A DNA stretch of 33,038 nt from a virus. The notes beneath the pieces are model-generated. The model was not told where the DNA came from. It did no database searches and saw only the letters and a program-made list of their open reading frames with translations. The stretch covers positions 1-33,038 of IMG/VR virus record IMGVR_UViG_3300042502_000267; one strand, written 5' to 3'. Made by a program: the position numbers and the translations under genes. Of the stretch, positions 142 to 24,407 are shown one piece after another (position 1 is the first letter of the stretch; the number at the start of each line of letters is the position of its first letter).

Positions 142-1695
142 TCATGCAAACACATCGAAGTCGGTGCTGGCGCTGGATTGGCCCATGGGTCGGCCACCGA
201 GCTGATGGGTGCGGGTCATCCGGTTGTACTCACCGCCGCCCAGCATCAGGTATCCGAAGCTGTCGCCAATGTGTGAGTGCTCGTTCTTGTTGGGCGCGTC
301 CCGGAAGCGCTCCTGGCCAGCCCCGATGGCGATGCGCTTGAAGTGGTAGCCACCGGCCAGGGACTTTCGTAGCAGCTTGCACTCGCGGTTGACGATGAGC
401 CCCGGCTTGCCTGCGATCAGGCGCTGCATGGGCGCTGCAGAAGCCTCGCGGCGCACCTTGAAGTCGTTGCTGGCCGTGGGCTGGGCACGCAGGCCCAGGG
501 TTTTCAGGTGATCAAAGGCGGTGACCTCGTAGATCGCGTCCCTGGCCATGCCTGCCGGGTCGCCCCAGACCATCACTTGGTGGTTGGGGTAGCGCTGGTT
601 AAGCTCACCCAGCAGTTGGTGGCCAAAGCGCTCCAGGCCCATGTCAAAGGTGACGATTTCCTGGTGAATCAGCCACCGACCGTTGGGCAGCCGCTGGCCA
701 ATGGTGGCCGCGGGGGTCAAACCAAAGTCCAGCCCCACCTGGATGGGCACCGAGGGGTCAATCTCGGTGTCGCCAGACATGGTCGAGTCCTCATACTCGG
801 GCCAAACAGGCCTGCCCTCCTGGACATAGGTGTACTCGCCCCCGGCATAGCAGCGAATCCAGTCCAGATTCTTGCCGAGCAGCATCTGCTGGTAGTAGCC
901 TGGGGGCAAGTTGTGGACATTCTCGGCTTTGGGGTTGACCTTCCACCACTTGCCGCTGGCAAAGATGTGATCGTTGGCCTCGGGCATCTCGGGCAGGTCT
1001 TCAACAGCCACCGGCACCACGCCGCCGGGCTGCTTCCAGAACTTCCAGGCGTACTGGCCGCTCATCTTCTCCTTCTCGGCCATCTTGTGCCACCAGTGGT
1101 CGTCATCCATGGGGTTGGTATCCATCCAGATCCCATGCCATGTAGCCCCGCCATCGCGCTTGGTGGGGTATCGGCCAACCCGGTGGGTCAATCCGTCGAT
1201 CACCGCCTTGGGCAGCTCTCTGGCTTCGTTCACCCAAGCGCCCGTGAGCTCCAGTGAGAGCAGTTTTCGGACATCCTTGGGCTGGTCAAGCGCCAGGAAG
1301 ATGACCTCGCAGTCGATCCCGGCGGCATCCCCACGGGCTGGCAGCCGAATGTGGTGGGTGATGGGCGGTGTCCACAGCATCGGGCCGAAGGTAGCCTCCG
1401 GGAACAGGTCGAGCCATGTCTTGATGGTGGTCGTCTTCAGCATGGGGTAGCTGTTCCTGACCACCGCCCACCGGGTATACCGGATGTTGTCAATGGCAGA
1501 CGGCTTTTGCTGCACCGCCTTGATAAAGATCTTGCTCGCGCAGCCGTAGCTCTTGCCCGACCCCACCGGGCCCATGATGCCCTGGACGAAGTTCTTGGAC
1601 TGGATGAAGTCGTATATCACCGGCGACTCGCTGAAGTCCAAGTTCAGCCCGGCCACCGGCACAGCTTTGTCGGATGTCTCTTTGGTTCTAGCCAT
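142..1695 (-). CDS. terL: Terminase large subunit (packaging ATPase/nuclease)
   Basis: This is the DNA-packaging motor: an N-terminal ATPase that drives DNA into the prohead and a C-terminal RNase H-like nuclease that cuts the concatemer. With the ATG at 1695 the protein has 517 residues. Walker A is GPVGSGKS (about residues 42-49) and a Walker B-like strand ends AWVNEARE (about 154-160). The nuclease acidic residues are Asp323 in GLDFG, Asp379 in WGDPAG and Asp478 in HIGDSFGY. Two adjacent ATGs (1698, 1695) follow AAGGGG. The second has the better spacing, although a longer frame opens to 1728. The start overlaps the end of the small-terminase gene, which implies coupled translation. Confidence 0.93.
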   Translation of the reverse strand: MARTKETSDKAVPVAGLNLDFSESPVIYDFIQSKNFVQGIMGPVGSGKSYGCASKIFIKAVQQKPSAIDNIRYTRWAVVRNSYPMLKTTTIKTWLDLFPEATFGPMLWTPPITHHIRLPARGDAAGIDCEVIFLALDQPKDVRKLLSLELTGAWVNEARELPKAVIDGLTHRVGRYPTKRDGGATWHGIWMDTNPMDDDHWWHKMAEKEKMSGQYAWKFWKQPGGVVPVAVEDLPEMPEANDHIFASGKWWKVNPKAENVHNLPPGYYQQMLLGKNLDWIRCYAGGEYTYVQEGRPVWPEYEDSTMSGDTEIDPSVPIQVGLDFGLTPAATIGQRLPNGRWLIHQEIVTFDMGLERFGHQLLGELNQRYPNHQVMVWGDPAGMARDAIYEVTAFDHLKTLGLRAQPTASNDFKVRREASAAPMQRLIAGKPGLIVNRECKLLRKSLAGGYHFKRIAIGAGQERFRDAPNKNEHSHIGDSFGYLMLGGGEYNRMTRTHQLGGRPMGQSSASTDFDVFA

Positions 1696-2107
1696 CATTG
1701 CCCCTTGGTGCCACCACGTTGATGTCAATCACGCTGGGCTTGCTATCGTCGTCAGGGCTGTCCAACAAGCCACTGGCCTTGGCCAGAAGTCGGAGCACCC
1801 CCACCTTGTCGTAGAGCTCGATCTCCAAGGTGCTGACCCCGTCCTTGTCAGTCCTGACCTTGATGTTCTTGATCGCGTGCAGTGCGTGCTCAGGTATATC
1901 GCTAGACCTTTTCACCGTCACATTGCCGTGCTCATCCCAAGTCATGATGTCGGTCAGCTTGGTGTTGGCCATGCTCAACAGCGCATAGGCCACGGCCTCC
2001 TTGTTGGCCACAATGGTCGAGCTGCGCTCCAGTCGGCGCTGCACAGACCTGACCCCACCCCAGTTGGTCAAGGGCGGGATCACAGTGGACTGCTTGGGCC
2101 TTGTCAT
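1688..2107 (-). CDS. terS: Terminase small subunit (DNA recognition)
   Basis: 139 residues, immediately upstream of and overlapping the large terminase. The N-terminal part (about 15-50) is helical and could form the DNA-binding region. The central TWDEHGNVTVKRSSDIPEH and the following IKNIKVRTDKDG, then LYDKVGVLRLLAKASGLL, follow the layout of phage small terminases: a short beta hairpin, then the 'D-K-hydrophobic-leucine' oligomerisation helix. The tail is acidic (DSPDDDSK). The start ATG overlaps the stop of the preceding gene as TGATG. It presumably recognises the pac/cos site and recruits TerL. Confidence 0.83.
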   Translation of the reverse strand: MTRPKQSTVIPPLTNWGGVRSVQRRLERSSTIVANKEAVAYALLSMANTKLTDIMTWDEHGNVTVKRSSDIPEHALHAIKNIKVRTDKDGVSTLEIELYDKVGVLRLLAKASGLLDSPDDDSKPSVIDINVVAPRGNDG

Positions 2108-2364
2108 CAGAACGGTATATCGTCGTCAGACTCAACCACCGCAGCCTTGAGCTGAGGTTGGGGCTGGCCACCGCCTTGCACCAGCTCGCCGACAGACAGC
2201 GAGATCCACTTCTCGCCAGCACTGGTCGTCTTCGTCCAGCCGCTCACCCACCTCACTTCGCCGCCGGGCAGCATGATCTTGCCCTTCAGGTTTGGGTGGC
2301 TCTCTGTCGTCCTCTTGTCATTGCGGAACAGGCTGCCCTGCCCAGGTCTCATTTCGTATGCCAT
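2107..2364 (-). CDS. 85-aa protein with SSB-like acidic C-terminal tail
   Basis: The chosen start is ATG 2364, because AAAGGAG lies 6 nt upstream; a TTG one codon earlier is less likely. The protein begins MAYEMRPGQGSLFRND and has a compact body rich in Gly, Trp and Lys (KGKIMLPGGEVRWVSGW). A Gln/Pro-rich linker follows, and the end is ESDDDIPF. That acidic, hydrophobic-ended tail is the signature by which bacterial single-stranded-DNA-binding protein docks its partners. The body is much shorter than a full OB-fold SSB, so this may be a minimal ssDNA-binding protein or a protein that mimics the SSB tail. It lies at the head of the terminase genes. Confidence 0.72.
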   Translation of the reverse strand: MAYEMRPGQGSLFRNDKRTTESHPNLKGKIMLPGGEVRWVSGWTKTTSAGEKWISLSVGELVQGGGQPQPQLKAAVVESDDDIPF

Positions 2365-2390
2365 CAAAGCTCCTTTGGGTTGATTGTCGT

Positions 2391-2717: not shown

Positions 2718-3637
2718 CAGGCATCTGCCTGCAGTTGTCGGATGCCGGTGGCCAGGACTGCGCTGGTGGGCTCGATGCCCTCGGCTTGGTACAGCGGCAG
2801 CAGGGTGTCGAGGCTGTCGGTGATCTGCTCGACGGTCAATCCATCAGCAATCAATTTGTCAATTTCAAAGTTTCCTATAACTGTATTAAACCTCTTTAAA
2901 GACTCTTTATAAATACTCTCTCTTATGTGTTCTCCTGAGTTATAGGAAACTGTGGAGTGTCCTATTGGTTGCCTATGGAGGGCTTCATTGGACACTTTTG
3001 GGATGCCTTCATTGGACACTGGTGAGTGTCCTATGGACTGATGGTTATCAACTGACTTGTCCACAGCTTTGGGCTGCTTGGATTGTGCCTTTCGGATGCC
3101 ATCTTTCATCTCTCTGACCGTTCTGGTCTCGCCTGACTTGGGCATGGTTTTGCTCCTGGTTGGTGGTTGCTTGAATGCTTTGGAGATCAGGCTTGCGATG
3201 CGTGCCTGACCGGCTGGATCTGGTGTTTCTTGCATACTGGGTGGTCTGGTGTCTTCCTTGTTGCTGGTGATGATGATGGCTTCCTCTGCTGTGATGCTGG
3301 GGTCGAAGATGACTCTGAGGGTGTTGCAGCGCTCGCCTCTAAAGCCCTTGCGGACGATCTCGACGTAGCCTGCATCGCGCAGCTTGGCCAGCTGGTTGGT
3401 GATGTTCTGGCGGCTGGTCTTCATGTCCTCGGCCAGACGCTTCTGGCTGACCCAGGTCAGGCCTGCCCGGTTGCAGTAGCTGCACAGCAGGGCGAGGATG
3501 CGCACAGCGCCATCGGTCAGCTTGGGATCTGTCAGCGCCCGGATGGGCATCACGCACACCTTGCGCTGGTCTGGCGGCGCGTCCTTTTCCTTGATGCGCG
3601 GCTTCTTGGGCAGCGTGAAGGGAATGACTTCAGGCAT
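2717..3637 (-). CDS. Winged-helix replication initiator (lambda O-like organisation)
   Basis: 306 residues from ATG 3637 (a GTG at 3646 would add three). The N-terminal third holds a winged helix: LTDGAVRILALLCSYCN, then LTWVSQKRLAEDMKTS and NITNQLAKLRDAGYVEIVRKGF (about residues 38-100), typical of phage replication initiators and HTH_36-type proteins. A Lys/Ser/Pro-rich linker follows, with the repeated pattern IGHSPVSNE / IGHSTVSYN, then a C-terminal helical domain (about 250-306) suited to binding a helicase or loader. The linker codons contain an iteron cluster and an AT-rich segment, so the gene probably carries its own origin. The product is inferred to bind those iterons. No helicase or primase is in the window, so host DnaB recruitment is plausible. 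Confidence 0.78.
   Translation of the reverse strand: MPEVIPFTLPKKPRIKEKDAPPDQRKVCVMPIRALTDPKLTDGAVRILALLCSYCNRAGLTWVSQKRLAEDMKTSRQNITNQLAKLRDAGYVEIVRKGFRGERCNTLRVIFDPSITAEEAIIITSNKEDTRPPSMQETPDPAGQARIASLISKAFKQPPTRSKTMPKSGETRTVREMKDGIRKAQSKQPKAVDKSVDNHQSIGHSPVSNEGIPKVSNEALHRQPIGHSTVSYNSGEHIRESIYKESLKRFNTVIGNFEIDKLIADGLTVEQITDSLDTLLPLYQAEGIEPTSAVLATGIRQLQADA
2870..2950. other. Candidate origin: AT-rich unwinding segment between 12-bp inverted repeats
   Basis: GTTTCCTATAAC (2870-2881) and GTTATAGGAAAC (2939-2950) are perfect inverted repeats. They flank 57 nt of which 40 are A or T. The repeat core TTTCCTAT resembles the adjacent iteron core GTGTCCTAT, so these may be two further binding sites. 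Iterons beside an AT-rich element within the initiator gene is the lambda ori plan. Confidence 0.58.
2956..3034. repeat. Iteron cluster inside the replication gene
   Basis: There are four copies of a 10-bp unit. AGTGTCCTAT is at 2956-2965 and 3025-3034; its inverted near-copy ATTGGACACT is at 2987-2996 and 3011-3020. The third and fourth copies form a dyad with a 4-nt centre. The two inverted copies share a longer context, CTTCATTGGACACT. Units of this size and arrangement, lying in the middle of an initiator gene, are what replication initiators bind. Confidence 0.65.
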
Positions 3638-4010: not shown

Positions 4011-5132
4011 TCAGCCGCCGCCAAGCAAGACGCCTGTGCCGGTGGTCAGCAGGTCTTGCATGGCTTGCTGCACTTCGTCAGGTGTGTTGCGCTCCTTGAG
4101 TCGTTGCTGCGCCCACGCAGCGCCCTGATCAAAGCTGTCCAGGGCTGTGCCTTTCCTATCTGCAACCCACCCCCAGTCTTCGTCCGTCAACCCCTGCCAT
4201 TGGCGTTTGGGTGGGGTGGTGTAAAGAGGGTAAGCAACACAAGTTCCGCCAATACGCCGTGCTTTTGATTTTGCGTCAAGTTCTGCAAACTCTCCACGAA
4301 TCATTTGTGTAATTCCTTGTACAGCCCACGCCACCGGCTCCTGCTCTGGCTTAGGTGGGTAGTTGTTGCTGCTGCAAGCCACACATTCGTAAAGCACCCC
4401 TGCCTTGCACTCGGGGCAGGTAGGTTCTAGCTGTGCTGCTGCAAAGTGATCAGCAAGTTCCCTTGCCCGGTGTTTATTAATGCCCTCGCGGACTAGGCTA
4501 ACCACTATCATGTCGCGCCAAGGGGTTGGCTCCTGCTCTGGCAGAGGTGGGGTGGTGCGAACATACTCAATGCCATAGCCGGTTGCGTTATCTGCACTCC
4601 ATGTCACATCATGCAATTCGCCAAACAAAACCTCAGTTTCGTCTTGCGGGTCAAAACCAAGATCAAGCCAAATTCGGTCAGGCGCTGTGCTTACAACCTT
4701 TGCCACCGGCTCCTGCTCTGGCTGTGCTGCGGGTGGGGTGGTGTAGAGAGGAATCCACTCCCATCCATCTGCGGCTATGGTTTGCTTTTCGCAAGTCACG
4801 CTGTCAGGGTCAAAGTCATCGCATTGCATATCTCTTTCAATCCACGCCACCGGCTCCTGCTCGGCTTGCTGCTTGGACACGCTGTACCAGTGCTTCAGCG
4901 CAGATTTCAAACTGCGAATCTCAATCTCGAATGCCTTGGCCTCACAGTGACGGGCGCACGGCGCGGGGTGGGTACCTGCGGCTTGTAAGGCTTGGCGGTC
5001 AGGCTCCTGCTCTGGCTGTGCCAGTTGAGCGCGTAAGGCCTCTGCTGCAATACCCTGCTTCAGCCATGTTGAGCCGCCACGGTACTCCAACGCCTCCAGC
5101 GCCAGAGTTGCGGCTTGTCTTAGGTCAGTCAT
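4011..5132 (-). CDS. Modular EPVAW / LYTTPP repeat protein, function unknown
   Basis: 373 residues. A short helical cap (MTDLRQAATLALEALEYRGG) is followed by modules separated by the motif PEQEPVAW or close variants (about residues 40, 92, 138, 200, 263), and two modules close with PLYTTPP. Between the repeats the modules differ. One contains a CPEC...CVAC tetracysteine (zinc) cluster at about 240-255, and the last ends in helices with TDEDWGWVADRKG. At DNA level the joints are near-identical copies of a GGCTCCTGCTCTGGC-type word. I associate this architecture with Burkholderiales phages, where to my knowledge no function is established. The start overlaps the resolvase stop as ATGA. Confidence 0.8.
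   Translation of the reverse strand: MTDLRQAATLALEALEYRGGSTWLKQGIAAEALRAQLAQPEQEPDRQALQAAGTHPAPCARHCEAKAFEIEIRSLKSALKHWYSVSKQQAEQEPVAWIERDMQCDDFDPDSVTCEKQTIAADGWEWIPLYTTPPAAQPEQEPVAKVVSTAPDRIWLDLGFDPQDETEVLFGELHDVTWSADNATGYGIEYVRTTPPLPEQEPTPWRDMIVVSLVREGINKHRARELADHFAAAQLEPTCPECKAGVLYECVACSSNNYPPKPEQEPVAWAVQGITQMIRGEFAELDAKSKARRIGGTCVAYPLYTTPPKRQWQGLTDEDWGWVADRKGTALDSFDQGAAWAQQRLKERNTPDEVQQAMQDLLTTGTGVLLGGG
4204..5022. repeat. Dispersed repeat words in the EPVAW gene
   Basis: GGCTCCTGCTCTGGC occurs near 4337, 4528, 4709 and 5002, with a shortened copy near 4854. GGTGGGGTGGTG occurs near 4209, 4547 and 4731. They encode the EQEPVAW and YTTPP joints. Their DNA-level identity is greater than that of the modules between them, which suggests recombination-driven module shuffling. 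Confidence 0.7.
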
Positions 5133-6132: not shown

Positions 6133-6414
6133 ATGACAACCACCACCACTACACAGCTCGGCGACATCTCCGAGATCTACTTGTCAACCGGCAAGCATGA
6201 CAGCAAGGGCCGCATGATCGGCTTCATTGTCGGCTTCCGCGATGACGGCACAGAGTTCTTTGCATGGGTGCAGAATGCTCGCCTTGTCAATGGCATGTGG
6301 GCCGACTACGGTGTTCGCCAGCGCAGCCGGTCATTCCCAGCCCAGCACTTTGCCACCACTTGGGCCTACGCAGAAGTCCGAGTGCGTATCGCCAAGATCC
6401 AGAAAGGTGCCTGA
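6133..6414 (+). CDS. 93-aa hypothetical protein, first gene of the rightward operon
   Basis: The start is ATG 6133, because AGGAG lies 6 nt upstream; the ATG at 6094 has no ribosome site. After a Thr-rich N-terminus the sequence is mostly predicted beta (GRMIGFIVGFRDDGTEFFAWVQNARLV) and then basic (VRQRSRSFPAQHF...VRVRIAKIQKG). No family is recognised. Being first after the early promoter, it is probably made early, and its size and charge would fit a small DNA-binding or host-takeover protein; that is inference. Confidence 0.75.
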   Translation: MTTTTTTQLGDISEIYLSTGKHDSKGRMIGFIVGFRDDGTEFFAWVQNARLVNGMWADYGVRQRSRSFPAQHFATTWAYAEVRVRIAKIQKGA

Positions 6415-6416
6415 TC

Positions 6417-7091
6417 ATGACCACCCACACCGGCAAATTCGTAGCCTACTTTCGGGTCTCCACCGACCGCCAGGGCAAGTCTGGCCTGGGGCTCGATGCG
6501 CAGCGCGAGCGCATCACCACCTATCTCAACGGGGGCAATTGGTCTCTGATCGGTGAGTTCACCGAGGTGGAGAGCGGCCGCATGAATGACCGCCCAGCCC
6601 TGGCCGATGCCGTCAAGCTGTGCAAGCGCGAGAAGGCCACCCTGGTGGTGGCCACCCTTGACCGCCTGACCCGTGATCTGGCCTTCGGTGCCACTCTGCT
6701 CAATGACACCAAGGTGCGTTTTGTCTGCGCCGACTTCCCCGAAGCCAGCCGCGAGATGCTGCAGATGCGCATGGTCTTCGCCGAGTGGGAAGCACGCAAG
6801 ATTGGTGAGCGCACCAAGCTGGCGCTGGGCGAGCTCAAAAAGCGCGGCGTGAAGCTGGGCTCACCCACCCCCAAGGTCGGCTCGGCTGCCGGGGTCAAGG
6901 TGGTCAAGGCCAAGGCCGACAAGTACGCCGACCGGGTCGGGCCCATCGTGCGCGACATCATCCGCAAGTCGGGTGCCGACACCATGCGCGACATCGCCGC
7001 CGCCTTGGAGGCCCGTGGCGTGGCCACCCCCAGGGGCAACACCAACTGGGGGCCGACTCAGGTCTCCAACCTGCTCAAGCGCATCAAATGA
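6417..7091 (+). CDS. Small serine recombinase (resolvase/invertase family)
   Basis: 224 residues from ATG 6417; the frame is open farther upstream, but the start two nt after the previous stop fits. The catalytic domain holds YFRVSTDRQ with the nucleophile Ser15 (and Arg13), LDRLTRD (81-87), and the dimer-helix pattern EWEARKIGERTK (123-134). The C-terminal part (about 165-224) has a helix-turn-helix that may read DNA: DTMRDIAAALEARGVATPRG then WGPTQVSNLL. It lacks the large zinc/coiled-coil domain of big serine integrases, so it resembles Tn3-type resolvases or Hin-type invertases. It could resolve genome multimers, invert a segment or integrate the phage. No crossover site was identified. 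Confidence 0.93.
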   Translation: MTTHTGKFVAYFRVSTDRQGKSGLGLDAQRERITTYLNGGNWSLIGEFTEVESGRMNDRPALADAVKLCKREKATLVVATLDRLTRDLAFGATLLNDTKVRFVCADFPEASREMLQMRMVFAEWEARKIGERTKLALGELKKRGVKLGSPTPKVGSAAGVKVVKAKADKYADRVGPIVRDIIRKSGADTMRDIAAALEARGVATPRGNTNWGPTQVSNLLKRIK

Positions 7092-13555: not shown

Positions 13556-16500
13556 TCACTGATTATTAAGTTGCACAATTTTGTTTGATAATTCTTGGAT
13601 CGCCTTTACAAGCATGGGAATCATCCGCTCATAAGTCGCTTCTAGCTTGTCTGGGTTGTCTTCGCTGACAAGGCCAAAGTCCAAGCCAAGTTTCTTCTGC
13701 GCAGCAAGAAGATTTTGTGCGCTTAAACTAGCAAAAGTGCCGGGTGCGTTTTTGCTTCCGTCACGTTTGTTCCATTCAGCCAAGAACGTGTCAAGCGCCA
13801 GCACAAAATCCAGACCTGGAAGATCGCCTCGCCTAATTTTGTCGCGCTCGTCAGACAGCACGGTCAAGGCTACTTGGCAACGCAAGGATGTGATGCTGGA
13901 GTTGCCGAGAGTGACTTGATTACTGACCGTTGGTGACGATCCCACGGCCTCATTCCCAACAAAACTGTTGTTGCTGCCAGTTGTGTTAGCACCAGTGCCG
14001 CCAGGGCCAAAACCGGAGCGAGCACCAATGGCGGTGTTGTTGGTGCCAGAATCAGTTCCGTACAAAGAACCGAAGCCAATTGCCGTGTTTAGGTCGCCTG
14101 TCGATGCGTTGAGCGTTTCAGAGCCAACGGCGGTGTTGTAGCTGCCGCTTACATTTGTTGCCACAGCATTGTGGCCAATGGCCACATTGTTGTCTCCAGC
14201 AACGGTATTCCACAACGTCTTATAACCAAACGCAGTATTGAAACCAGCCAATGACTTTAACAACGATTGATAGCCAAATGCTGCATTGTTGGAGCCAGAC
14301 ACGTTGTAATACATCGCGCCAAATCCATAAGCGCAGTTGTAATTTGCGTTCAAACTTGTGTACAGCGCTTGACTTCCAACGGCACTGTTGTAGTCACCGC
14401 CCACGTTGCTGAACAACGCCTTAAAGCCTACCGCAACACTTTCTTTTGAGGCCGCTGTTAAATTGGCAGCTTGGTATCCAACGGCAGTATTTATGTTCGA
14501 CGAAAAAAATGAAAGCAATCGTCGGCCACCAGCAGTTACCGAATCATGGATGTAATAAACGCCCAAAGTCGTGTCAAAAGTGACTTCGCCATTCGCCCCA
14601 ACATACGCTGCATTTTCCGCGGCGGTGAGATTCTTGGCGCGAAAAGGCAACACCGCATCGGCTTCGACGCGGGTCTCGATGCGCTCCACAAACTTGTTGG
14701 CAATCTTGATATACCCGGCTTGTGTCGGGTGAAGGTTGTCAGCCAGATCAGTCAGTGGGTCAATGACCGAGTTTGAATCGACAGTAAATATGCGAAGCCC
14801 GTCGTTCGCCAGTAAGGCGGCATTCTCGTAGATCACGCGGTTGTATGTCTTGGTCAAGGCATCGCTGCCACCGTAGAACGCATACCCGGCAGCAGCCATG
14901 AAAGTGACGTTGCCCACATACACTTTCGGGCCAGCGGCTTGATCGTTGCCTGCAACCCAATCCAAAAACACGTTATTGTTTGAGCCCGTAGCCGAGGTGA
15001 TTGTGAGGGTCACCTCATGCCGACCGCTCTGCGGTAGCGCAATGCGAATCAGCTTTGGCCCGAAAGATTGTCCGAGAGGAGTTGTAATCCCGGCTGCGGC
15101 ACAGGAGTAGATTCCTTTGTCCACGCCATCCACGGTGACCTTGACCTCGCCGGTCTTTGTCTCGACCATTGTCAGGCCAATATAGAGCACGCTGCCGGTG
15201 ATTGTGAAGCTGGCCGTGTCATTCTGCGTGATGGAAAATCTGTTGGATACTCCGTTGGCGTAGGTATCGTTGCTAGACCAGGTTCCGGTGTAGGAGATCC
15301 TGGCGTCTGTAGCCATGATTTTCTTACTATTCGGAATAGCTGCGAACGCAAGCAGAGCAGCATGGGACTCTTGAAAATATTTAAGCAGCGTTGCAGAGCC
15401 GCCTGACACCCGCATGTTGTTGATGCCGCAGGCCACGGTCACATTGTCGTAATCTCCAATAGTTGATCCATACAATGGCTTGGCAACATCGTGAGTCTGA
15501 GCACCGTTGATGCCGTAGTTGGTAACAGACCACCCCTTATTTGTCCCAATAAGTGATGGGAATGGATTGGCAACAGCATCACCCTTGGTAATTGAATCGC
15601 CATATGCTTTAAGCACAGTGCTGTTTTGTCCATATTGAAAAATGGCAATCTCTTCAAGCGCGGTTTCTGCGTTACCGCCAGTGTAGTAGTTGCCAGTGTC
15701 TGCGATGGTCACTGAGCTTGCGCCAAGCGATCCAATGGCATTGACCTGATAGCTAAACACCTCGACCTCGTCGTTGAGCGCAAGGCCGGTGGTCACCGTG
15801 ATTGTGGCGGCATTGGTCTCGGTGTACTCGCTGGCGTTGAGCTTCACGCCGTTGACGTACACCACCATGGTGTTGGTGCCCGGCGTGTAGGTTGCAACAG
15901 TCAGCACGGTCTGGCCGGATGTCGCGGTGATTGCCGTGCGCGTGTTGGAGGCCGAGGCGTTGACGTTGACCCAAGCCGTGCCGCTCCAGACTCGCATCTG
16001 GTTGATCGCGGTGTCCCAGTACAGGGCACCCGTCAGCAGGCTGTTGCCATCGTTGTCAACAGACGGGGCCGAGCTCTTCGACCCAAGGTAGCGGTCGTCG
16101 AAGGAGTCGTAGCTGGCCGCTGCGTTGGACGCGCTGGTGGAGGCAGCAGAGGCGCTGCTGGCTGCGTTGCTGGCCGATGTGCTGGCATTGCTCGCAGACG
16201 TTGATGCGTTGCTGGCCGAGGTCGATGCGTTGCTGGCGCTGGTTGATGCGGCAGAGGCCGAGGAAGCTGCAGCGCTCGCGCTTGCGGTAGCAGATGCAGC
16301 GTCCACCAGCAGCGACCACTTGGCGCTGTCGGCGTTGGTGTTGATTGGCTGCGAGCCGCTTGAGGTGTGCTGGACAAGACACTGCCAGATGTTGTTGTTG
16401 GTGGTGTCCTTGACAATGTCTCGGGCGTAGTACAGCACACCGGCTGTCCAGTTGCCACGGTTGGTGCCCAGCGTGTCCGAGATGACTGGGTTTCCGTTGC

Positions 16501-16969
16501 CATCAAAACCCAGCGCCTTGTTGGCACGCAGCGCTGCTCGCGGCAGCGTCATGTTGATGCTGGTCGGGTCGGTCTGCGGTGCGGCCAGGGAACGCTGCAC
16601 GCCCTCGGCATTTTGCTGGGCAAAGATGGTCTGCTGATCCATCTCGTCGTTCAAGGTGTTGGCAAAGAAGTCGCCGCCGGTCACAAAGTCGGTGGTGCGC
16701 TGGATGGTGCGGTTGCCGACAATGGCGTACTGAGTGGGGCTGGTTGGAGCCAGCGCCAGCCCGGTAGCGGTGATGGTCACCGAGCCAGTGCCGTTGGCGT
16801 TGATGGTCACCGTGTAGTGGGTGGTCAGCGTCAGCAGGGTGTCGTCTTTGAAGACGGCGATGTCGGTGTTGGCCAGGATCTCAAACGTGAACGCATAGGG
16901 GCCAGCGCCACCAGTGCCACTGGGTGCGTAGACTTGCCTGCGGGTCACGTTGCTAATTGGTACTGCCAT
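13556..16969 (-). CDS. Modular tail fibre: T7-type anchor, SGNH esterase, YadA-like roll, S74 chaperone
   Basis: 1137 residues; GAAGGA lies 7 nt before ATG 16969. Residues 1-155 match the virion-anchoring N-terminus of T7 gp17 (NVTRRQVYAPSGTGGAGPYAFTF; GNRTIQRTTDF). An Ala/Ser/Thr/Asn heptad linker spans 225-288. An SGNH hydrolase covers about 450-765: GDS block with Ser459, Gly486 or Gly489 in NYGINGA, GIN with Asn517, and DNLHP with Asp744/His747. A beta-rich insert (about 560-680) separates its third and fifth blocks. Residues 825-1010 hold about eleven N-x-A-x-G repeats with a 16-17 residue period, as in YadA head rolls. The C-terminus (from about 1036) is an S74 intramolecular chaperone with LSDERDK; Ser1039/Lys1044 have the spacing of the self-cleavage pair. 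It binds and probably deacylates host surface polysaccharide. Confidence 0.93.
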   Translation of the reverse strand: MAVPISNVTRRQVYAPSGTGGAGPYAFTFEILANTDIAVFKDDTLLTLTTHYTVTINANGTGSVTITATGLALAPTSPTQYAIVGNRTIQRTTDFVTGGDFFANTLNDEMDQQTIFAQQNAEGVQRSLAAPQTDPTSINMTLPRAALRANKALGFDGNGNPVISDTLGTNRGNWTAGVLYYARDIVKDTTNNNIWQCLVQHTSSGSQPINTNADSAKWSLLVDAASATASASAAASSASAASTSASNASTSASNASTSASNASTSASNAASSASAASTSASNAAASYDSFDDRYLGSKSSAPSVDNDGNSLLTGALYWDTAINQMRVWSGTAWVNVNASASNTRTAITATSGQTVLTVATYTPGTNTMVVYVNGVKLNASEYTETNAATITVTTGLALNDEVEVFSYQVNAIGSLGASSVTIADTGNYYTGGNAETALEEIAIFQYGQNSTVLKAYGDSITKGDAVANPFPSLIGTNKGWSVTNYGINGAQTHDVAKPLYGSTIGDYDNVTVACGINNMRVSGGSATLLKYFQESHAALLAFAAIPNSKKIMATDARISYTGTWSSNDTYANGVSNRFSITQNDTASFTITGSVLYIGLTMVETKTGEVKVTVDGVDKGIYSCAAAGITTPLGQSFGPKLIRIALPQSGRHEVTLTITSATGSNNNVFLDWVAGNDQAAGPKVYVGNVTFMAAAGYAFYGGSDALTKTYNRVIYENAALLANDGLRIFTVDSNSVIDPLTDLADNLHPTQAGYIKIANKFVERIETRVEADAVLPFRAKNLTAAENAAYVGANGEVTFDTTLGVYYIHDSVTAGGRRLLSFFSSNINTAVGYQAANLTAASKESVAVGFKALFSNVGGDYNSAVGSQALYTSLNANYNCAYGFGAMYYNVSGSNNAAFGYQSLLKSLAGFNTAFGYKTLWNTVAGDNNVAIGHNAVATNVSGSYNTAVGSETLNASTGDLNTAIGFGSLYGTDSGTNNTAIGARSGFGPGGTGANTTGSNNSFVGNEAVGSSPTVSNQVTLGNSSITSLRCQVALTVLSDERDKIRRGDLPGLDFVLALDTFLAEWNKRDGSKNAPGTFASLSAQNLLAAQKKLGLDFGLVSEDNPDKLEATYERMIPMLVKAIQELSNKIVQLNNQ
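13940..14506. repeat. YadA-head-like repeats in the fibre
   Basis: About eleven units with a period near 17 codons carry variants of NTAVGYQA, NTAFGYKT and NNVAIGHNA. In trimeric adhesins such units stack as a left-handed beta roll. The DNA is not identical between units, so this is an old protein repeat rather than a recent duplication. Confidence 0.8.
16106..16297. repeat. Tandem low-complexity repeats encoding the fibre linker
   Basis: Seven-codon units encoding variants of SASNAST are repeated in tandem (fibre residues 225-288). Such Ala/Ser coiled linkers set the reach of the fibre, and the near-identical units can expand or contract by slippage. Confidence 0.75.
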
Positions 16970-21926: not shown

Positions 21927-24407
21927 TTATTTACCCTTCGCCTTGCTTTTTTTATATTTCTCAACCAACGCAAGTGCTTCTTTTCTGGTTCTTGCTTTGC
22001 CAAGTACAACTTCGCCGGGTTCTTCCAGCCCTGCAGTAAATTGGGGGTTGGGTTGATAACGCACTACGCCTGTTTCATCTCTCTCCCAAAAAATATCTTG
22101 CACAGCAATGAGGCTTGCATCTTCTCGGCCTATATAGCCTTGCATACCTGCCTTAGATCTGGAAGCAATTGAAGGACGGGCATCAGTAGCTGGTGCTTTG
22201 CTAGGTGCTGCTGCCGGGGCCGGGGCTTGTCCAGGTGCTGCTTGCGTAAGAATCCATTTATCGATAATTTCTCTGGCAGCATCAAAATTTTGCGATTCAA
22301 AATCTTCTTTTTTTACTTTTCCAATAATGACACGTTGACCATTTTGCGTGACTTGAACATCGCCATTAGGTAAAAGTTTTGGGCCAAATGATTTGAATTG
22401 TTTTTGTTGAGCCGTGAGCTCTGGTGCTGCTGCCGCTGGAGCTGCAGCCGGTGCCGGTGTTGGGGTTGGGGTTGGTGCTGGCGCAGGGTCTGGGGTCGGG
22501 GTAGGCGCTGGCGCTGGAGCAGGGGCCGGGGCTGGGGCAGGCGGGGGGGCTGGTGCTGGAGGTGGCGGTGGCGGCGCTGCTGGTGGGCTGGGTGTTGGCC
22601 CAGGCTCATTCCCTTGAGCTCGCTGCAGCAGCTTTTCCAGCTCGGCAATTTGGCGCAATTTGTTTACATCGCTGCCAGCTTTCTGGCGCAGGGCAGGCAG
22701 GTTCTCAGCGGTCACCGGGCCGGTGATCCAGTCTCGGCCCGGCTTGGAGCTTCCATCCGCACGCTTCGCATACTCGTCAATTTGTTTGCGTGCTGACTTG
22801 GCGTCTTCGCTGTTTCGGCTTGTGGCAATTCCGCTCTCCAGTTGGGACAGGATCTGGCGCGGTGTCAGGGTCTTGCCCTCAGCGGCTGCTGCCGACTGTA
22901 TCTGCAGCGCCTGGGCCTTGAGCTCGTTGCGGCGCTGGAACTCTGCGCCCTTGGGATCAAGCACCACCACGCTGCCAGGGATTACCGGGATACCCGCGAG
23001 CTGCGAGAGGCCACGATCCAGGTCTGCGCTGTCGCGCCGGTCATCGGCCTGCAAGAGCTTGAGCGCAGCCACGGCATCCTCGCCGTTTATCCCTTTGCCA
23101 ACCAAGTTCCAGATCTGCCTGGAGTCGGTAATGGTGTTGTTGTAGATGCCGTTGAGCAGGTTGAAATAAACCCCCTGATCGGTTGGCATCTTCTTTGGCT
23201 CTTTTGGCTCCAGCAAATCCTTGAGCGTGCCAATGGGCACAGACCCTTCTGGCAGCGCGGTGAGCTGGGCGATGAGCTGCTTTTTCTTTGGGCTGTTGTC
23301 AGGCAGCGGGAAGATCTGCTCCAGCAGGTTAATGGCTTGGCCCTCGGCAACCCGCTTTTCATCTGCAATCTTGGCATCCTTGATTGATTTACGGGTGTTG
23401 ACCGCCACCATGAAGTTGGCAGTCACCTTGGCCACCGAATCAAAGTCATTCGTGATCATGGATTGCAACACCGGGCTCATGTTGCCCAGGTCGCCAGCCT
23501 TTAGCTTGGCCAGCGTCCTCTCTGGGTCAGCCATGTTGGCATCAGACATCAGCGCCTTTGTCACAGCGTTGACCTTTGCGGTGCGCAGTGCTGCCTCAAA
23601 TTTTGTGCTGTATTCGGTCTGCAAGCCTTTGTCGCCAAGCAGCAGGGATTGAGTCAGCACATTTTTGCGGAACACATCTGCGAGCTCGTCAACAGAACGC
23701 ACTTGGCCGGTTGAGTCTGTAAAGCTGCCTTGCGATACCGTTGCTTCCAACAATCTGATGCTGGTGTCAAAGTCAGAGTCAAACTTAGCAATGCGTTGGT
23801 TCTTTGCTCTCTCAAGCTCGGCCTTGTAAGCGGCATTGAGCACGGTGTTGCCGTGCGTGGCCATGGTTGCGCGGAACTTGATAGCGGCTTCTGGGTCAAT
23901 GCTAGACAGCGATTTTGAAAAACCGTCCGACATGGTCTTGACTTTGGCGCTGACTTGCTCGGATGTAACGCTGCCATTCTCAACGCCAGACAGCAGCTTG
24001 ACCAGCTCGTTGCGGCCTTCCATTTCAAAGTGCCCAGACAACTCTAGGCTTCGGGCCTTGGCTACGGCTTGGTCAAAAAAATTGGTTGAGCTGGTGCTGC
24101 TGATTAAAGATGTTTCGCCGCGTCCACCAAGACCTATAGTTGTCCCAAATTCGCCTTTGGCATACCGCAATTGCTCAGAGGTCAGCGGGTTCTGCGCTAC
24201 ATATTGCAGTCCCTCTTGCTGGCGCATAACACCAGCCGACTGAAATGCACTTGCGCTCATGCGGTCAAGTACTTGCGCCAATACATTTGCCGTTTGCGCT
24301 TCAACTCGCAGCCCAATGTAGTCCACCGGCTGCTGCTGGGCCTGCACGATTGGCACACTGCCCACCGAGCGAATCTGCATCTGTCCTGATTCAATTCTGG
24401 TTGCCAT
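21927..24407 (-). CDS. 826-aa internal virion protein with Pro/Ala linker
   Basis: It occupies the position of T7 gp15, between the gp14-like and larger ejection proteins. Residues 1-595 are mostly helical with Gln/Ser-rich stretches (MQIRSVGSVPIVQAQQQPVDYIG; GLSQLAGIPVIPGSVVVLDPKG). About 598-665 is a striking Pro-Ala/Pro-Thr linker. After that a small domain (LNGDVQVTQNGQRVIIGKVKK-type strands, residues about 670-700) is followed by a second Ala/Pro stretch. The C-terminus has PSIASRSKAGMQGYIGRED then a basic tail (KYKKSKAKGK). It is expected to be packaged and ejected. The flexible linker would let it pass through the tail as separate domains. Confidence 0.84.
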   Translation of the reverse strand: MATRIESGQMQIRSVGSVPIVQAQQQPVDYIGLRVEAQTANVLAQVLDRMSASAFQSAGVMRQQEGLQYVAQNPLTSEQLRYAKGEFGTTIGLGGRGETSLISSTSSTNFFDQAVAKARSLELSGHFEMEGRNELVKLLSGVENGSVTSEQVSAKVKTMSDGFSKSLSSIDPEAAIKFRATMATHGNTVLNAAYKAELERAKNQRIAKFDSDFDTSIRLLEATVSQGSFTDSTGQVRSVDELADVFRKNVLTQSLLLGDKGLQTEYSTKFEAALRTAKVNAVTKALMSDANMADPERTLAKLKAGDLGNMSPVLQSMITNDFDSVAKVTANFMVAVNTRKSIKDAKIADEKRVAEGQAINLLEQIFPLPDNSPKKKQLIAQLTALPEGSVPIGTLKDLLEPKEPKKMPTDQGVYFNLLNGIYNNTITDSRQIWNLVGKGINGEDAVAALKLLQADDRRDSADLDRGLSQLAGIPVIPGSVVVLDPKGAEFQRRNELKAQALQIQSAAAAEGKTLTPRQILSQLESGIATSRNSEDAKSARKQIDEYAKRADGSSKPGRDWITGPVTAENLPALRQKAGSDVNKLRQIAELEKLLQRAQGNEPGPTPSPPAAPPPPPPAPAPPPAPAPAPAPAPAPTPTPDPAPAPTPTPTPAPAAAPAAAAPELTAQQKQFKSFGPKLLPNGDVQVTQNGQRVIIGKVKKEDFESQNFDAAREIIDKWILTQAAPGQAPAPAAAPSKAPATDARPSIASRSKAGMQGYIGREDASLIAVQDIFWERDETGVVRYQPNPQFTAGLEEPGEVVLGKARTRKEALALVEKYKKSKAKGK
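22417..22617. repeat. Low-complexity Pro/Ala codon run
   Basis: Tandem GGX/GGY-rich plus-strand sequence encodes the minus-strand PAPAPAPT-type linker of the 826-aa protein. It is prone to slippage, and length differences between isolates would be expected. Confidence 0.8.

Follow-up and report, generated by a model that had tools for sequence, protein, structure and literature searches.

A predicted initiator gene with a cluster of repeated sites

The window (the entire 33,038-nucleotide stretch analyzed here, IMG/VR record IMGVR_UViG_3300042502_000267) encodes a 309-amino-acid winged-helix protein, a predicted replication initiator whose gene contains a compact cluster of repeated sites (Table 1), together with a single-strand DNA-binding protein (SSB), an exonuclease, an annealing protein, a RuvC-like resolvase, and the large and small terminase subunits. 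The capsid and connector proteins are 75% and 72% identical, respectively, to those of phage MEP301; HTVC010P-type pelagiphages and Vibrio podoviruses are more distant kin by capsid and tail, and the metagenome sources of the relatives give the impression of freshwater phages. The serine recombinase of the window (6264–7091, plus strand) has a resolvase domain and matches the Recombinase domain only below threshold; according to the MEP301 paper, that domain is missing from the recombinase of that phage as well. In the capsid genes of genomes G003, G004, G006, G008, G011, G018, and G020, the match to the window capsid includes one in-frame stop, probably an alignment overrunning the C-terminal stop.

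Table 1 Features of the initiator locus (window coordinates)
Feature	Position	Strand	Evidence or remark
SSB gene, replication-associated neighbor	2107–2367	(-)	PHROG SSB families, E 6e-8
Initiator gene, 309 aa	2717–3646	(-)	PF13730, PHROG matches, AlphaFold2 model
Initiator domains	residues ~36–112, 191–248, ~259–308		winged helix (predicted recognition helix 79–92), flexible middle, C-terminal helical domain
Distal half-site ATAGGAAACT	2869–2878	(-)	past the AT-rich segment
AT-rich segment, putative unwinding element	2882–2938		40/57 A/T, direct count; between dyad 2 and distal half-site
ATAGGAAACT in second inverted-repeat arm	2942–2951	(+)	part of dyad 2
Dyad 2, ATAGGAAACT-GTGG-AGTGTCCTAT	2942–2965
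AGTGTCCTAT units	2956–2965, 3025–3034
Weak seventh half-site ATAGGCAACC	2967–2976	(-)	11 bp from dyad 2 in the direction of the gene
ATTGGACACT units	2987–2996, 3011–3020		2987–2996 (+) is a single half-site
Dyad 1, ATTGGACACT-GGTG-AGTGTCCTAT	3011–3034
Second, weak DnaA-box-like site TTATCAACT	3045–3053	(+)	2 mismatches; 12 bp from the first
DnaA-box-like site TTGTCCACA	3057–3065	(+)	1 mismatch to TTATCCACA

PF13730 (HTH_36) matches residues 43–95 of the initiator with 36.8 bits (gathering cut-off 25), and weak PHROG matches point to phage replication initiation and O-like families. AlphaFold2 predicts the winged helix with confidence, places a disordered stretch at residues 191–248, the part that the iteron region encodes, and ends the protein with a small helical C-terminal domain with pLDDT of ~78; confidence in the model as a whole is low (pTM 0.35), and the fold match thus covers the winged helix only. 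In the Foldseek search, ranks 1–4 were taken by 4pql, 4pt7, and 5kbj (E 3e-4 to 1e-3), with other winged helices close behind; these top matches are pSK41-type RepA N-terminal domains and a Rep-DNA complex, and we take 4pql and 5kbj to be RepA_N proteins. The identification of 4PT7 as a RepA_N protein comes in part from PMC7145576. A sequence search against solved structures yielded nothing beyond weak matches to regulators. PF06970 (RepA_N) was absent from the Pfam matches of the window protein at E up to 1, and PF04492 (Phage_rep_O) did not match this protein or exceed its cut-off in any of 22 genomes, among which there was one sub-threshold match. The search of a bacterial genome collection for the initiator gene produced no confirmed relative; accordingly, this collection gave no indication of prophages and allowed no assignment of a host.

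All six exact matches to ATWGGAMACT in the 33-kb window fall within positions 2869–3034, inside the winged-helix gene (shuffled sequences contained 0.13 on average and at most 2). The earlier note on this DNA had listed four of these units with correct positions and sequences, together with a perfect 12-bp inverted repeat, which is exact (GTTTCCTATAAC, 2870–2881, and GTTATAGGAAAC, 2939–2950), and a 57-nt segment with 40 A/T, which was counted correctly and is the stretch between the repeat arms. Its proposal that the inverted-repeat core resembles the iteron core, giving up to six sites, likewise holds: the arms contain ATAGGAAACT, bringing the exact total to six. It missed the seventh, weaker half-site and the arrangement of sites into dyads, both of which span 24 bp with a 4-bp spacer and conform to the pattern ATWGGAMACT-N4-AGTGTCCTAT. 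Among all 60-mers of the window, the one richest in AT (starting at 2856, 77% AT) adjoins the cluster and is flanked by half-sites. GC skew, which the earlier note had proposed as a check, gave no clear origin signal in the window.

The site stretch of the window gene contains 19 8-mer repeat pairs, compared to a mean of 2.0 and a maximum of 11 in 300 synonymous shuffles that hold its protein sequence and codon usage fixed; the excess recurs in most of the other relatives examined and is less clear in L011, L046, L054, and L082. Among close relatives, synonymous codon identity is 0.85–0.93 over codons 193–240 and lower on both sides (0.59–0.61 over codons 169–192 and 0.63–0.76 over codons 241–276), with some other stretches of the gene also high. 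Across the whole window, local repeats stronger than those of the site cluster are present only in the tail-fiber repeat region (~16,000–16,300). The respective tail-fiber-like ORF (13556–16969, minus strand) contains a long Ser/Ala/Asn repeat run, especially at 16001–16300, which gives a stronger local repeat signal than any other part of the window. Scattered PEQEPVA-like repeats occur in a 373-aa ORF (4011–5132, minus strand), along with a weak, sub-cut-off match to PF12236 that is probably not meaningful, and a large ORF of the structural region (21927–24407, minus strand) includes a Pro/Ala-rich low-complexity stretch at about 22400–22600.

Site clusters and recognition residues across the relatives

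Scans of IMG/VR identified 237 loci with a readable initiator gene, of which 125 are unique and 92 were retained after dereplication. The site cluster occupies an equivalent portion of the gene in all 92 relatives, with a median of 6 class-matched half-sites (range 3 to 10), compared to a mean of 0.36 in a control stretch of equal length at the 5' end of the gene; the loss of the units from close relatives that retain the protein, which the earlier note would have held against an origin, was looked for and not encountered. At least one dyad is present in 87 of the 92 relatives and at least two in 75. A class-matched distal half-site past the AT-rich gap, which averages 68% AT, was detected in 74, in 72 of these in the same orientation. 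The commonest head-to-tail spacing of half-sites is 11–12 bp, with 11 bp at the top. The half-sites form classes A (ATAGGACACT), B (ATTCACAACC), C (ATAGGCAACC), and D (ATACGCAACC).

The sole homologue without the insert is the distant one from MEP301, 38% identical over the N-terminal third, in whose short gene no internal iterons were seen on inspection by eye. This gene, gp55 (locus L105, 34057–34662, minus strand), encodes a 201-aa protein annotated as hypothetical and represents a short initiator homologue without an internal origin. Given this homologue, embedded sites do not occur throughout the wider group.

DnaA-box-like sites directly precede the iterons; those of the window are weak, with one at no more than one mismatch. 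Relatives often carry TTATCCACA or TTGTCCACA at the corresponding position, commonly as two copies 12 bp apart, and L031 and L011 are among the relatives in which the second-box position reads TTATCCACT. In 44 relatives, which are not independent of one another, boxes with at most one mismatch number 66 compared to 19.3 ± 3.8 in synonymous shuffles, and perfect boxes 14 compared to 1.5. Several of the relatives have no such box, and most of the class C and D relatives lack them, so that DnaA boxes are not supported as a constant part of the origin; judging from these patterns, a role for DnaA is conceivable.

Two residues of the winged helix covary with the half-site without a single exception among the 92 relatives: half-site position 5 is G in relatives with R79 and A in those with Q79, and positions 6–7 are AC where residue 84 is N and CA where it is K or R, the half-site states being called with motifs picked after the sequences had been seen. 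The window is of the R79/N84 type, L019 of the Q79/K84 type, and L090 of the R79/K84 type. Residue 79 is the first residue of the predicted recognition helix, and Arg–G and Gln–A are textbook protein–DNA contacts. In the tree of the linker and C-terminal domain, the residue-79 trait switches 22 times, with the site switching along each time; among independent supported pairs in this tree, 13 of 13 agree for residue 79 (p = 0.00024) and 7 of 7 for residue 84 (p = 0.016). In the N-terminal tree, which was built without the recognition-helix region, all 6 switches of residue 79 and all 8 of residue 84 are concordant, as are the 4 supported independent pairs, too few for significance (p = 0.125).

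Since the winged helix and the sites share one gene, joint transfer could mimic such covariation. Comparison of individual pairs of relatives at the nucleotide level argues against this. L015 and L056 are 68% identical in the winged helix and 60% in the ori, compared to 94% over residues 116–164, 97% in the linker, and 89% in the C-terminal domain; for the window and L019, the corresponding values are 65% (winged helix), 54% (ori), 91% (linker), and 89% (C-terminal domain), and L057 and L062 present a similar pattern, with a conserved linker between a differing winged helix and ori. Simple linkage within one gene was rejected as the cause of the covariation, the linker being near-identical while both flanking segments differ; with the intervening linker so conserved, the winged helix and the sites are most likely kept matched by selection. 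Furthermore, L076 and L101 have capsids 93–94% identical to that of the window, yet their initiators belong to other site classes; thus, specificity changes faster than the capsid. The class-matched positions, the covariation, and the co-exchange, all read from the sequences themselves, jointly provide strong, though indirect, evidence that the initiator protein binds its sites.

Origin, operator, or by-product

The region at about 2869–3065 is best explained, with high confidence, as a replication origin of the phage located inside the gene of its own initiator. Both the anatomy of the cluster and the existence of similarly built initiators make it very likely that the site cluster is a replication origin, and the placement within the initiator gene, as claimed by the earlier note, is well supported comparatively by the constant position, the match between site class and recognition helix, and the co-exchange. 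Under the proposed mechanism, the N-terminal winged helix, probably as a dimer, would bind the single half-sites as well as both dyads, R79 and N84 of the recognition helix reading half-site bases 5 and 6–7, respectively. The resulting complex would melt the AT-rich segment, which has half-sites on either side, after which the C-terminal helical domain would recruit the helicase, primase, and polymerase of the host, given that none was detected in the phage; DnaA bound at the adjacent DnaA-box-like sites possibly helps this recruitment. The origin DNA would double as the code for a flexible protein linker, and the cluster would presumably be the sole origin.

The principal competing possibility is that the cluster is an operator, through which the protein represses or times transcription of its own gene and of the downstream SSB and terminase genes, with the origin located elsewhere. 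Such winged helices are common in transcription regulators, and an operator explains site binding equally well, covariation being unable to separate the two. We nevertheless consider an operator unlikely: the sites are not at a promoter but some 600 bp inside the coding sequence, they flank the AT-rich segment in a conserved order, a layout known from initiator-embedded origins, and the best PHROG families are replication initiation proteins, with a plasmid initiator as the best fold.

The sites may alternatively belong to another protein of the phage. The phage encodes a resolvase and a terminase, and dyads are typical of the sites of such proteins, so the cluster could serve site-specific recombination by the serine recombinase or packaging by the terminase; however, a foreign binder would not be expected to produce a site class that follows residues 79 and 84 of the containing gene in every one of the 92 relatives, and this option appears very improbable. 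Least credible of all is that the repeats arose as a side effect of peptide repetition or of biased codon use in a disordered linker. Although the stretch does encode a low-confidence, poorly conserved linker, none of the 300 synonymous shuffles for the window reached the observed repeat count, synonymous codons are more conserved over codons 193–240 than beside them in close relatives, and the inverted orientation, the dyads, and the class switching are unexpected from peptide repeats.

An origin within an initiator gene has precedents: lambda O and pSK41 Rep both carry the origin within the gene (PMC7466680, PMC5703833). The earlier note had called the locus lambda-O-like, which is apt as an analogy of layout but not as membership, with no Phage_rep_O match above the cut-off and no lambda P. 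As in lambda O/ori-lambda and the Stx phages, iterons and an AT-rich tract lie mid-gene and the protein binds its own gene (PMC7466680), which is predicted here; however, lambda has four iterons beside the AT-rich tract, whereas the present cluster consists of two dyads and single half-sites on both sides of it and has DnaA-box-like sites next to the iterons. No match to PF06992 or PF01695 that would represent a lambda P-type loader was recognized in the 22 genomes.

The window protein resembles plasmid initiators that have an internal origin more than it does lambda O, and the closest working precedents are pSK41 Rep and pPR9 Rep. In pSK41 Rep, the Rep boxes lie mid-gene and encode a dispensable linker, and the C-terminal domain is host-specific (PMC5703833). 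The pSK41-type RepA_N initiators share with the window protein the winged-helix fold of the N-terminal domain and mid-gene sites that encode a linker, but differ in the RepA_N Pfam match, which is absent here, in half-sites and architecture, and in the DnaA-box-like sites present here. The Rep of pPR9 has a PF13730 N-terminal domain and origin region in place of those of pSK41; its rep region supports autonomous replication, and the pPR9 mini-replicon is reported to work and to be compatible with pSK41 (PMC5703833). Going by this description, pPR9 Rep resembles the window protein in the PF13730 domain, the origin within the rep gene, and the exchange of N-terminal domain and origin against a retained C-terminal domain; however, pPR9 is a Firmicutes plasmid with a RepA_N/pSK41-type C-terminal domain, whereas the window comes from a podovirus with a different, short C-terminal domain, for which no prophage relative was found in the bacterial genome collection. 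MEP301 shares the gene layout (resolvase, YqaJ, SSB, and winged-helix gene) and the lack of a phage DNA polymerase but differs in that its homologue, gp55, has no embedded sites.

Proposed origin specificity in polymerase-less podoviruses

In the set of 22 genomes of 32–35 kb, which includes the window and MEP301, we found no Pfam match to PolA (the polymerase family searched in each genome), DnaB helicase, the DnaC/IstB loader, or lambda P. Both MEP301 and the HTVC010P-type pelagiphages are without DNA polymerase and depend on host replication (PMC8024684, PMC10504331); a helicase loader gene has been reported in the pelagiphage Skadi (PMC10504331). With relatives of similar capsid known to be polymerase-less (PMC8024684, PMC10504331), the earlier note went too far in calling such an origin unexpected alongside T7-type structural genes.

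The principle is already known; what is new here is the phage group, the mixed layout, and the code. We tentatively propose, as a scenario that is plausible but falls somewhat short of probable, that one sizeable group of polymerase-less freshwater podoviruses has diversified its origin specificity via a two-residue code, with the winged helix and the origin swapped jointly among otherwise similar phages. If so, co-infecting relatives would replicate without response to each other's initiators, and initiation would depend on host DnaA, with no phage helicase loader. For MEP301, no initiator or origin is annotated, and the homologue is listed as a hypothetical protein; the present analysis offers a concrete candidate initiator and origin for a large group of metagenomic phages related to MEP301 and the HTVC010P-type pelagiphages. 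The code predicts which protein would bind which site, and natural sequences suffice as test material. In these genomes, the joint swap of binding domain and origin, with the linker in between left unchanged, records cleanly how a protein and its DNA target have moved in step.
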